Shown here piece after piece: positions 1,189 through 4,869 of a DNA stretch of 64,000 nt. The stretch is from Streptomyces zhaozhouensis. Its GTDB lineage: Bacteria > Actinomycetota > Actinomycetes > Streptomycetales > Streptomycetaceae. Positions within the stretch are counted from its first letter, which is position 1. Each line of letters opens with the position of its first letter. Under the pieces are notes generated by a model. The model was given only the letters and a program-made list of their open reading frames with translations. It was not told where the DNA came from and did no database searches. Both the position numbers and the translations under genes were made by a program. Where the stretch lies: assembly GCF_900230195.1 (NCBI RefSeq), contig NZ_OCNE01000003.1, positions 372,001 through 436,000 of the forward strand. Direction: 5' to 3'.

Positions 1189-1284
1189 CTCCCGCGTTCA
1201 TGCCCTCCCGCGTTCAGGCTCTCCCGCGTTCAGGCTCTCCCCCGTGCACGGCCTTCCCGCGTGCACGGCCCTCCCGCGCTCAGG
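1189..1284. repeat. degenerate 16-bp tandem repeat, about six copies
   Basis: Units resembling CTCCCGCGTTCAGGCT begin near 1189, 1205, 1221, 1237, 1253 and 1270. Copies 2 and 3 are identical; later copies change GTTCAGG to GTGCACG. The array fills the gap between two convergent genes and runs into the last codons of the permease gene on the minus strand. Confidence 0.7.
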
Positions 1285-2164
1285 AGACGATGTCCTTGCG
1301 GGCGAAGTGGCGGTAGGCCAGCGCCACCAGGAGCAGCGCGTAGGCGAGCGAGACCGCGCCACCGCGCAGCATCCCGTTCCACTCCACGTCGCGTTGGAGC
1401 GCGTCCAACCAGGCGAAGAGCCAGTGGGCCGGGATCAGCTGGCGCCAGTCGCCGAGCGCGGTGATGGCGTCGAGAATGGAGCCGAGGATGGTCAGCCCGA
1501 TCGCGCCGCCCACCGCGCCCAGCGGCGCGTCCGTCACCGTGGAGAGCCAGAACGCCAGGGCGGCGGTGACCAGTTGGCCGACGAAGATCGCCGCGAGCGC
1601 GAGGGCCAGCCGGAGCGCCGCCTCGCCGCCCGGCAGGGTGCCGCCGGTCGGCAGCCGCAGCTCTCCCCAGCCGTAGGCGACGGTGCCCACGCCCAGCGCC
1701 GACAGCGGCAGCAGCACCATCGCGACGGCCGAGAACGCGAGCGCCACCAGCAGCTTCGCCGTCAGCAGCCGCCAGCGCGGCACCGGCGCGGCCAGCAGAT
1801 AGCGCAGCGAGGACCAGCCGGCCTCCGAGGCGACCGTGTCGCCGCAGAACAGCGCCACCGGCACCACCAGCAGGAAGCCGGCCGAGAGATAGAGACAGAC
1901 GGCGGCGAAGTTGGGACCGGAGGCGGTGGCGGAGTCCAGCAGTGCGGACTCCGAGTCGTCGGGCGCGCCGCCCACCGCGAAGGCGACGGCCACCAGCGGC
2001 GGGAGCAGCGCCAGCAGCAACCCCACCACCAGCGTGCGGCGCCGCCGCAACTGCCGCACGGCCTCCACGCGCAGCGGCAGCGTACGGCGCGGAACATAGC
2101 CGGGGGCGGCGGGCGGGAACGGGTCGACGGCGGGTTCGCGCTGGTCGGCCGGGGATGTGGTCAT
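1280..2164 (-). CDS. ABC-2 type transporter permease
   Basis: The 294-aa product has a hydrophilic N-terminus (MTTSPADQREP) and about six hydrophobic segments, starting with LVVGLLLALLPPLVAVAFAV and ending in an LAYALLLVALAYRHFARKD-type tail. This is the pattern of ABC-2 membrane subunits that work as dimers with a cytoplasmic ATPase. The ATG lies two bases after the stop of the upstream hydrolase/ATPase fusion gene, so the two are translationally coupled and very likely one exporter. The substrate is unknown. The direction (export) is inferred from the ABC-2 family and the absence of a binding protein. Confidence 0.88.
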   Translation of the reverse strand: MTTSPADQREPAVDPFPPAAPGYVPRRTLPLRVEAVRQLRRRRTLVVGLLLALLPPLVAVAFAVGGAPDDSESALLDSATASGPNFAAVCLYLSAGFLLVVPVALFCGDTVASEAGWSSLRYLLAAPVPRWRLLTAKLLVALAFSAVAMVLLPLSALGVGTVAYGWGELRLPTGGTLPGGEAALRLALALAAIFVGQLVTAALAFWLSTVTDAPLGAVGGAIGLTILGSILDAITALGDWRQLIPAHWLFAWLDALQRDVEWNGMLRGGAVSLAYALLLVALAYRHFARKDIVS

Positions 2165-2166
2165 GG

Positions 2167-4869
2167 TCAGGCACCGCCGATCAGGGTCAGGAAGGCGTCC
2201 TCGAGCCGGCGGTGCGGCATGACGCCGCTCACCGGGATGCCCGCGGCCACCAGCGCGGCGACCAGCGTCTCGGGTCCCGCGCCGTCGAGGCGGACCAGCA
2301 CCCCGGACTCCGTGTCGGTGGCGTCGCCGACGCCCGGCAGCGCGCGGATGGTCGCCAGCCAGGCGTCGGTCATCGGCTCGGCGGTGCTGACCAGCACGGT
2401 GTCCCCCGTGCCGACGATCTCCGCCACCGGCCCCGAGGCGACCAGCCGACCGCCGTCCATCACCACCAGATGTGTGCAGGTCTGTTCGACCTCGGCCAGC
2501 AGATGACTGGAGACGATCACGGTCCGGCCGCCCTCGGCGTAGCGGACCATGACCTCCCGCATGGCGCGGATCTGCGGCGGGTCGAGGCCGTTGGTCGGCT
2601 CGTCCAGGATCAGCAGGTCGGGAAGGCCCAACATCGCCTGGGCGATGGCCAGTCGCTGGCGCATCCCCTGGGAGTAGGTGCGCACCGGGCGGGCCAGCGC
2701 GGGCCCCAGGTCGGCGATCTCCAGCGCCTCCTCCAGCCGTGCGTCGGCGGCCGGGCGGCCGGTGGCCCGCCAGTACAGCTCCAGGTTGGCGCGGCCGGAC
2801 AGGTGCGGCAGGAAGCCGGCGCCCTCGACGAACGCGCCCACCCGGGAGAGCACCGGCGAGCCGGGTCCCACGCGGTGGCCGAAGACCGTGATCTCGCCGG
2901 CGTCGGGGGTGATCAGGCCCATCAGCATCCGCAGCGTGGTGGTCTTGCCGGCGCCGTTCGGTCCCAACAGGCCGAGGACCTGGCCGCGTTCGACGCGGAA
3001 GGAGAGGTCGCGCACCGCGTAGCGGTCGCTGTGCCTGGCGTAGCGCTTGGTCAGCCCAGTGATCGCCAGCGGTGTTCCCGCCAGCCCGGGATCGTGGGAG
3101 ACGGCGGCGCGCCGGCGCACGCGCGGCGCGACCAGCGCGACCGCCACGGCGAGCGCCCCCAGCGGCAGCCCCCACACCCACCAGGGCACCGGCGTCGCCG
3201 CGGTGGCGACGCCGGGGGCGGTCGGCAGGGTGAGCCGCAGATCGTCGAGGGCGACGGTGTAACGGGCGGTGCCGGCCGGCGAGGCGTAGCCGATGTCGGT
3301 GCTGGAGACGACCAGCCGCATCCGGTGCCCGGCCTCGAACGGGTAGTCGACGGTGGGCAGTCGGAAGGTGACCACCCGGCCCTCGGGGCCGAGGTCCTCC
3401 ACCCGCAGCGGCGCCACCAGTTGGGCGGGCAGCGACTCGCTGCCGCCGTCCGGGGCCACGTCGTAGAGCTTGCCGAAGAGCACGGCCTCGTCCGTGTCGG
3501 AGGAGACCCGCAGCCGGACGGTCGGGGAGCCGGTGACCCGGGTGGCCTCGGTCAGCGGCGGGGAGTCGAAGCGGGCGAACTGGCCGGGGAAGTCGATCGC
3601 CGGCAGGAAACCCAGCCCGGTGAACCCGCCGAGGCCGCCCAGCCCCGGCACGGTGGAGACGGCGGCCGGCGCGCCGCCCGGCGGGTTGACGAACGTCTGC
3701 GGCTCGCCGGACAGTTCGACCGTCCCGGTCTTCTCGCCGTCCAGCCCCGGGTAGGCGTCGCCCGAGGCGCCGGCGAGCAGGGTGTCGCCGTTGGTGGTGT
3801 CGAAGCCGGTGATCCGGGTGACGCGGAAGGGCGGGCCGACGTCGGCCGAGGCGTCCTCGCGCAGATGGCGGTCGAACCAGGCGGTGATCCGCTCCTCCGT
3901 GCGGCCGGACTCGGAGATACCGCCGTCGTGGCCGGCCCACAGCCACTCGACGCGCACCGGCGCGCCGTTGGCCCGCAGCGCCTCGGCCATGGCGTCGGCG
4001 TGGTCGAGCGGGAAGAGCGAGTCGTGCTGCCCCTGGAGGATCAGGGTCGGCACGTCGATCCGGTCGGCCACGGCGGCCGGGCTGCGCTCCGCGAGCAGCG
4101 CGAGCGCCTCCGGGTCGGACGCGCCGGCGACCGCCACCCGCTGGTAGAGCGCGCACAGCTCGTCGGTGAACCGGCCGCACCCGGGGTCGACGCCCGCCTC
4201 GGCCGGCAGCTCGCCGCCGATCGGGGCGGCGGCGCCCGTGGTGAAGAGGATGCCGGCCCACAGTTGCTTGAAGACCCCGTTCGGGAAGAGCGCCTCGCCG
4301 AGGTCCCAGTAGGTGACGGCCGGCGCGATCGCGTCGACCCGGTCGTCGTGACCCGCGGCCAGCAGCGCGATGGCCCCGCCGTAGGAGGCGCCGGCGATGC
4401 CGACCCGGGGGTCGCCCGGGCCGTCCTGGGCGACCTCCGCGCGTTCGCCCAGCCAGTCGACGAGCCGCGAGACGTCGGCCACCTCGCGGTCGGGGTCGTT
4501 GAGACCGATCTGGCCGGTCGACGCGCCGAAGCCGCGCGCCGACCAGGTGAGCACGGCGTAGCCGTCGGCGGCCAGCGCCTCGGCCTGCTCGCGGGTGTCG
4601 TCCTTGCTGCCGCCGAAGCCGTGGCCGAGCAGCACGGCGGGGCGGGGGGCGCCGCCGTCGGCGGACTCGGCGACGAAGTAGGAGGTGTCGATCCCGACCG
4701 TGCGCTCCGACCCCGGCTCCTCCGGCATCGTCAGCACACGGTCGACACGGCGCACGGTCGGCGCGTCGTCGGCGACGGCGAGGCCGACCGTGCCGATCCC
4801 GACCAGCAGCGCGAACGCGCCGAGGCCGGCCCAGGCCCGCCGGGTGTTCCGGGGCCAGCGGAGTCTCAT
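2167..4869 (-). CDS. membrane-anchored CocE/X-Pro-peptidase-like hydrolase fused to an ABC transporter ATPase
   Basis: A 900-aa two-part protein. Residues 12-34 form an N-terminal membrane segment. Residues about 60-340 are an alpha/beta hydrolase with nucleophile Ser162 (GASYGG), Asp283 (QGQHDS) and His314 (AGHDGG). Residues about 345-550 look like the PepX C-terminal jelly-roll of CocE/NonD and S15 hydrolases. A second membrane segment at 562-583 is followed by Arg-rich sequence, and residues 600-900 are a complete ABC ATPase: Walker A GPNGAGKTT (636-644), signature YSQGM (732-736), Walker B LLILDEP (752-758), switch His789. The topology places the hydrolase outside and the ATPase inside. 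A GAAGGGA ribosome site precedes the ATG. It is coupled to the permease downstream. The hydrolase may process what is exported or cleave an external peptide or ester; that is inference. Confidence 0.9.
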   Translation of the reverse strand: MRLRWPRNTRRAWAGLGAFALLVGIGTVGLAVADDAPTVRRVDRVLTMPEEPGSERTVGIDTSYFVAESADGGAPRPAVLLGHGFGGSKDDTREQAEALAADGYAVLTWSARGFGASTGQIGLNDPDREVADVSRLVDWLGERAEVAQDGPGDPRVGIAGASYGGAIALLAAGHDDRVDAIAPAVTYWDLGEALFPNGVFKQLWAGILFTTGAAAPIGGELPAEAGVDPGCGRFTDELCALYQRVAVAGASDPEALALLAERSPAAVADRIDVPTLILQGQHDSLFPLDHADAMAEALRANGAPVRVEWLWAGHDGGISESGRTEERITAWFDRHLREDASADVGPPFRVTRITGFDTTNGDTLLAGASGDAYPGLDGEKTGTVELSGEPQTFVNPPGGAPAAVSTVPGLGGLGGFTGLGFLPAIDFPGQFARFDSPPLTEATRVTGSPTVRLRVSSDTDEAVLFGKLYDVAPDGGSESLPAQLVAPLRVEDLGPEGRVVTFRLPTVDYPFEAGHRMRLVVSSTDIGYASPAGTARYTVALDDLRLTLPTAPGVATAATPVPWWVWGLPLGALAVAVALVAPRVRRRAAVSHDPGLAGTPLAITGLTKRYARHSDRYAVRDLSFRVERGQVLGLLGPNGAGKTTTLRMLMGLITPDAGEITVFGHRVGPGSPVLSRVGAFVEGAGFLPHLSGRANLELYWRATGRPAADARLEEALEIADLGPALARPVRTYSQGMRQRLAIAQAMLGLPDLLILDEPTNGLDPPQIRAMREVMVRYAEGGRTVIVSSHLLAEVEQTCTHLVVMDGGRLVASGPVAEIVGTGDTVLVSTAEPMTDAWLATIRALPGVGDATDTESGVLVRLDGAGPETLVAALVAAGIPVSGVMPHRRLEDAFLTLIGGA

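Follow-up and report, generated by a model that had tools for sequence, protein, structure and literature searches.

A predicted ecto-hydrolase fused to an ABC ATPase beside an ABC-2 permease gene is an old, conserved architecture in many actinobacteria

In many actinobacteria, a hydrolase and an ABC ATPase are joined in one polypeptide chain with a permease gene adjoining, and our analyses show that this arrangement is old and strictly kept. We describe it from a window of 64,000 nucleotides of Streptomyces zhaozhouensis (contig NZ_OCNE01000003.1, positions 372,001 to 436,000), the whole stretch of DNA analysed here, to which coordinates refer. The source genome has 6.5 Mb, and the closest named homologue, in a listing that may omit records very near the source genome, is from Streptomyces sedi with 94% identity in the best segment. 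The fused gene, delineated by its open reading frame, Pfam matches and alignment, occupies 2167..4869 on the minus strand and encodes 900 amino acids from an ATG start without internal stop. A basic N-terminus precedes a first hydrophobic segment (TM1, residues 15-33, 4771..4827, minus strand) that, judged by hydropathy and charges, is either a signal anchor or a cleavable signal peptide. The predicted extracytoplasmic hydrolase of S15/CocE fold with a PepX_C jelly roll follows at residues 36-553 (3211..4764, minus strand); it carries the catalytic triad S162 (in GASYGG), D283 and H314 as well as Cys231 and Cys239. A second transmembrane segment (TM2, residues 563-581, 3127..3183, minus strand), assigned from hydropathy and a structure model, leads over an Arg-rich stretch to the ABC ATPase (residues 601-894, 2188..3069, minus strand). 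The latter features Walker A (636-643), the signature YSQGM (732), Walker B LLILDEP (752), the switch H789 and a Glu at the Q-loop position. By hydropathy alone, the two segments are the top two 19-residue windows of the protein (2.08 for 15-33 and 1.89 for 563-581). Pfam assigns Peptidase_S15 (PF02129) to residues 73-311 (80.9 bits, cut-off 23), PepX_C (PF08530) to residues 429-532 (56.5 bits, cut-off 22.5) and ABC_tran to residues 620-760 (105.2 bits, cut-off 25). The ABC-2 type permease of 294 amino acids (1280..2164, minus strand) begins 2 bp past the fused-gene stop; queried as 1280-2173, it matched ABC2_membrane_2 (PF12679) with 44.9 bits against a cut-off of 27.2.

Homologues were collected from named genome contigs, plasmid records and further genomes, and a frame was scored as fused when matched by both a hydrolase profile and an ABC profile. 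Removal of identical-sequence frames and of the window's own loci left 119 distinct loci besides the window, near relatives, e.g. many Rhodococcus, each being counted singly. In the alignment of these loci with the window, the triad S162, D283 and H314 is identical in 120 of 120 rows, and the same holds for K642/T643 of Walker A, S733/G735 of the signature, D756/E757 of Walker B and H789. H83, which likely belongs to the oxyanion region, is kept in 118 of 120 rows. Residue 682 (codon 2824-2826), which we take to be the Q-loop position of the ATPase where Gln is usual, is Glu instead in 119 of 120 rows. A permease frame lies beside the fused gene in 118 of the 119 distinct loci, and at the sole locus without one (L122) the sequence ends 510 bases after the fused gene. 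With duplicates still included, 125 of 126 loci had the permease on the strand of the fused gene at a distance of -100 to +300 bases. A misassembly or chance frame is hence ruled out by the identical fusion in 119 other distinct loci, with its motifs in 120 of 120 rows. Thus, what an earlier note on this DNA had read from the window as one polypeptide, with an intact Ser-Asp-His hydrolase, a complete ABC ATPase and a coupled permease gene, recurs throughout this collection, and the misassembly that it had named as a possible objection did not come up.

We then surveyed the architecture more widely, as the earlier note had proposed, with a junction profile composed of PepX_C, TM2 and the start of the ABC domain. 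Searched at E 1e-55, it hit 106 of the 394 class genomes, including one (G136) that was matched by the ABC half only; the true junction is present in 105 of 394 genomes at 107 places, all free of internal stops. Of the 40 genomes in the window's genus, 36 have the junction, the source genome included. Two genomes (G067 with L142 and L143; G211 with L144) have two fused copies each. Carriers also include six genomes of only 1.3-1.6 Mb in family f27, which hints at a housekeeping role in the cell envelope. Across the phylum, 41 of 296 surveyed genomes gave a match to the hydrolase profile, a count that includes solo enzymes. Sixteen loci outside the class were examined: ten are fused with the permease behind (L189-L197, L199), and the remaining six are solo hydrolases (L198, L200-L204). 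With at most nine candidates scored per genome, the solo hydrolase half was seen in 2 of 151 genomes from the phylum of a Chloroflexi MAG and in none of 149 from the Bacillus phylum. The junction was found in none of 151 and none of 150 genomes of these phyla, respectively, a weak test with at most 16 candidates scored per genome. Among the fused homologues, that of Actinomadura harenae (L045, 5001-7928) stands out by an extended low-complexity insertion that separates TM2 from the ABC domain.

Read from these sequences, the hydrolase likely lies outside the cell and the ATPase inside, which follows from the cysteine pattern, the N-terminal charges and the exported solo relatives. The charge before TM1 is more positive than after it in 119 of 119 loci; after TM2 it is more positive than before in 92, and 27 loci break the rule. 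A hydrophobic window of at least 1.6 is present for TM1 in 108 and for TM2 in 114 of the 119 loci, with minima of 0.88 and 1.41, respectively. Cysteines of the outer half come as a pair or not at all: 117 rows have exactly two, three rows have none and no row has one; those at positions 231 and 239 are lost jointly, a pattern that fits a disulfide formed in an oxidising environment. The rows without cysteines (L126, L134, L178) all belong to the window's genus and could reflect a single loss. Moreover, the 22 solo relatives look exported, as by hydropathy alone their pre-hydrolase hydrophobic windows of 1.29 to 2.39 resemble export signals. Nothing found places the hydrolase in the cytoplasm, in agreement with the orientation suggested earlier. 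The two membrane segments of that proposal need a qualification: TM1 may be a cleaved signal peptide, as 81 of 119 fused homologues have an A-x-A close to where this segment ends (a count without chance control), and TM2 alone is hence surely retained. In five of the 22 solo relatives, the C-terminus forms a membrane anchor, consisting of a hydrophobic segment and an Arg-rich tail. Two of these five have a sortase-type motif (LPATG in L204, LPNTG in L170).

The model of the fused protein has a pLDDT of 75.8, with values below 50 at residues 26-34 and 579-590 among others, and at its pTM of 0.58 the relative placement of the two halves is not firm. TM2 appears as a helix at 563-579. Residues 36-551 of the model matched the lipase PaL (8yzn) with Z 26.5 and an rmsd of 3.3 over 444 residues, followed by the cocaine esterase CocE (1ju3) with Z 23.5 over 445 residues. 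The next structural matches were CocE/NonD, an archaeal aminopeptidase, X-Pro dipeptidyl aminopeptidase and amino acid ester hydrolase; the X-Pro peptidase structures 6nff (Z 21.4) and 1lns (Z 20.3) rank below the lipase and CocE. Foldseek also places PaL and cocaine esterase nearest. By sequence, PaL is the one solved relative among the matches listed that covers nearly the full hydrolase, and none of the 56 sequence matches of the hydrolase is named an X-Pro peptidase. In NCBIfam, the hydrolase half matched CocE_NonD (TIGR00976) with 95.9 bits against a cut-off of 66.3. S15 is a family label, not an activity, and from the modelled fold an esterase, lipase or amidase appears likelier than an X-Pro peptidase. 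The peptidase specificity of the earlier proposal is thus not borne out, the closest solved relatives being PaL and cocaine esterase. CocE/NonD, PaL, cocaine esterase and alpha-amino acid ester hydrolase share the catalytic fold and the C-terminal domain with the fused hydrolase. In contrast to it, the solved PaL/CocE-type enzymes, with 20-23% identity, are not joined to a transporter, as judged by their chain lengths.

The ATPase half is closest by sequence to ABCA proteins and NosF. Its best NCBIfam match, drrA with 173.7 bits, stays below the cut-off of 312.45, and Rv1218c is among its PDB matches. FtsE is found among the near folds at rank 33 with Z 18.1, where many ABC ATPases score alike. 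A defence system was ruled out, as PADLOC matches were confined to the ATPase half. The permease model (pLDDT 91.6) has no separate outer domain and is closest to NosY (Foldseek E 5.3e-05), one of ten matches at E <0.001; KpsM, PmtCD, ABCG proteins and a mycobacterial efflux pump are weaker, at E 0.006 and above. Pfam reports ABC-2 families only, which together with the lack of a separate outer domain in the model rules out a permease of the FtsEX/MacB type. ATPases of ABC-2 exporters normally are soluble and bind the permease from inside. Drug exporters of the DrrAB/Rv1218c type, related to the fused system by the ATPase matches to drrA and Rv1218c, are not known to have a hydrolase or a transmembrane segment on the ATPase chain. 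Unlike these usual soluble ATPases, the fused ATPase would be tethered to the membrane by its outer enzyme.

We favour, tentatively and at close to an even chance, an ABC-2 exporter whose ecto-hydrolase processes the cargo on exit; the invariant active sites and the permease as constant neighbour point this way. The two genes would encode an exporter of the ABC-2 class (type V) whose ATPase subunits each bear an outer-face hydrolase via TM2. As an ABC transporter depends on a pair of ATPase domains, the complex would consist of two fused subunits and two permeases and would put two CocE/lipase-fold active sites near the exit. The permease would most likely extrude an amphipathic cell-envelope molecule with an ester or amide group, which the tethered hydrolase would cleave as it leaves the cell. 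The cargo would be matured or de-acylated, and its cleavage would make export irreversible. We infer here the subunit numbers, the export direction, the shared substrate and the chemistry. Because neither active site varies across the 120 rows, a single molecule probably has to perform both activities, although hydrolase and exporter might act on different molecules. In the opposite direction, the hydrolase could release a product from an outer ester for import by the ABC-2 unit. We regard such uptake as highly improbable: the ATPase resembles ABCA proteins by sequence, some of which are importers, but ABC-2 permeases of this fold, such as KpsM, PmtCD, ABCG proteins and the mycobacterial efflux pump, are exporters, and no recurring binding-protein gene was seen among the nearby genes, which were clustered and not all named.

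How the fusion arose was addressed with two trees, both quick, without bootstrap and with unproven roots. The hydrolase-core tree contained 35 fused representatives of less than 62% identity, taken from the 120 rows, and all 22 solo enzymes. The fused proteins take one side of one branch (SH-aLRT 97) with no solo row inside. In the ABC-domain tree, the same 35 were set against the 40 best-scoring unfused ABC domains, lower-scoring ones being dropped, and the fused proteins again fall on one side of one branch (SH-aLRT 99); several unfused ABC rows are long-branched. Distances in the hydrolase and ABC halves correlate with r 0.69, a value reached by 0 of 999 permutations, but this would also be expected from shared ancestry alone. 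As each half forms one clade apart from the sampled unfused relatives, one old fusion is likely, and the simplest reading of the sequences is that no later splitting occurred. Near unfused ABC genes, among the matches listed, were inspected at 14 loci. Ten have a recognised ABC-2 permease beside them, hence the motor also occurs as a plain transporter. None of the 14 encodes a close hydrolase relative, the only match being a weak one of 30 bits at L220. Given the exported and partly anchored solo hydrolases, the surface enzyme seems to have been added onto an exporter. The C-terminal anchors of five solo relatives suggest that this happened by joining an ABC ATPase to the inner tail of such an anchored enzyme. 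A split form was searched for at 22 distinct solo-hydrolase loci, mostly with flanks of 4-5 kb, and none adjoins such an ABC gene with permease; lower-score ABC frames lie on the opposite strand at L171 (153 bits) and L201 (81 bits). The solo hydrolases L166 and L167 of family f13 score 466 and 465 bits against the fused-family profile, above other solos, and lack TM2 and the ABC domain.

The fusion could also serve co-localisation only, anchoring a surface esterase and setting its amount with no common substrate or control. Gene fusion is a simple route to fixed stoichiometry, and five of the 22 solo relatives are themselves membrane-anchored. Still, we consider this improbable, as neither active site was lost in any of the 120 rows and no split form appeared in the loci examined, although its presence within and beyond the class marks the fusion as old. 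An old fusion of probably single origin that was never seen undone in the examined loci rather implies that enzyme and transporter likely share a task.

Such a shared task could also be ATP-driven control of the outer hydrolase by mechanotransmission, which needs no export and which the earlier note had placed beside export-coupled processing. The ABC cycle would shift TM2 and the permease and thereby open or clamp the hydrolase. This follows the logic of FtsEX, in which an inner ATPase acts with an outer peptidoglycan hydrolase; there, the hydrolase forms a protein of its own and the permease belongs to a different type. Among solved structures, NosDFY, likewise an ABC unit with an outer partner, matches the permease best and is one of the top matches of the ATPase. 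Its task concerns a periplasmic protein, not small-molecule export, and its rank as best permease match counts against a small-molecule export reading. NosD presumably is a separate periplasmic protein, neither a hydrolase nor joined to the ATPase. ATP control would be consistent with these likenesses, FtsE near the ATPase fold included (though many ABC ATPases score alike there), with the invariance of both active sites across all 120 rows and with the absence of solo rows within the fused clade. Nonetheless, we hold it to be rather unlikely, although it is the strongest of the alternatives. The permease is of ABC-2 and not of FtsX/MacB type, its model lacks a separate outer domain, a lone transmembrane helix is a weak lever, and ten of the 14 near unfused ABC genes among the matches listed sit in plain ABC and ABC-2 pairs. 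A more far-reaching version, in which the ATPase stroke would gate or power the attached hydrolase via one transmembrane helix, as an actinobacterial class of ecto-enzyme ABC proteins of the basal envelope that would act even in genomes close to 1.3 Mb, is an unlikely conjecture.

An outer enzyme and an ABC domain in one chain have a precedent in PamJ, which belongs to another enzyme family. XcnG, ClbP and PamJ peptidases have the S12 beta-lactamase fold. Membership of the fused protein in their group was ruled out, as none of the nine Pfam families listed for it is a beta-lactamase. According to PMC4234257, which reports Reimer et al. 2011, the PamJ polypeptide unites an XcnG-group peptidase with an ABC domain that presumably is cytoplasmic. 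In this 'type II' design, nine transmembrane helices are followed by the ABC domain, and the peptidase function is described there as unconfirmed. PamJ thus resembles the fused protein in carrying an outer peptidase and an ABC domain in one chain, but it has its channel in the same chain, whereas the fused protein has one or two transmembrane segments and a separate permease. PamJ was found in NRPS/PKS clusters, in contrast to the fused loci, for which no conserved biosynthetic neighbours were seen. In a zeamine cluster described in PMC3547906, genes for an ABC ATPase, an ABC-2 permease and a hydrolase lie side by side but separate. For an S15 hydrolase-ABC fusion, a search of the open-access literature with all terms required jointly returned no description; one may be in print elsewhere. 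The earlier remark that the combination is rarely discussed therefore holds for the open-access literature searched, with PamJ as precedent in an unrelated family. By knock-out of the fused gene, export-coupled surface chemistry could readily be tested in Streptomyces and its relatives.

The surroundings were scanned at 44 fused loci with median flanks of approximately 4.9 and 4.7 kb, the shortest being 105 and 657 bases. No NRPS/PKS cluster context was found in these flanks, and no third gene recurs in them across many families, a lack that counts against the export reading. The largest neighbour clusters consist of frames overlapping the two core genes (235 of 241, 23 of 23 and 12 of 16 members). 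Clusters mostly outside the core cover at most 5 of the 44 loci; most link Rhodococcus, f6 and f48 loci, and two sets of four loci link Actinomadura, f1 and f19. We take both for plain synteny. At L139, the neighbours presumably are uvrB-like and DNA-ligase-like genes. A promoter scan at the fused gene and the permease found nothing, and a lone terminator-like site lies outside both genes on the other strand, within shuffle expectation. Between the convergent permease and subtilase genes, a 16-bp unit is repeated 5.9 times in tandem at the stop codon of the permease (window positions 1189-1284); this repeat is absent behind the permease in S. sedi (L017). In the one annotated record that was read, the fused protein of Tsukamurella tyrosinosolvens (WP_232066410.1) overlaps an 'ABC transporter permease' by 4 bp and is named 'alpha/beta fold hydrolase', a name that conceals its ATPase half.
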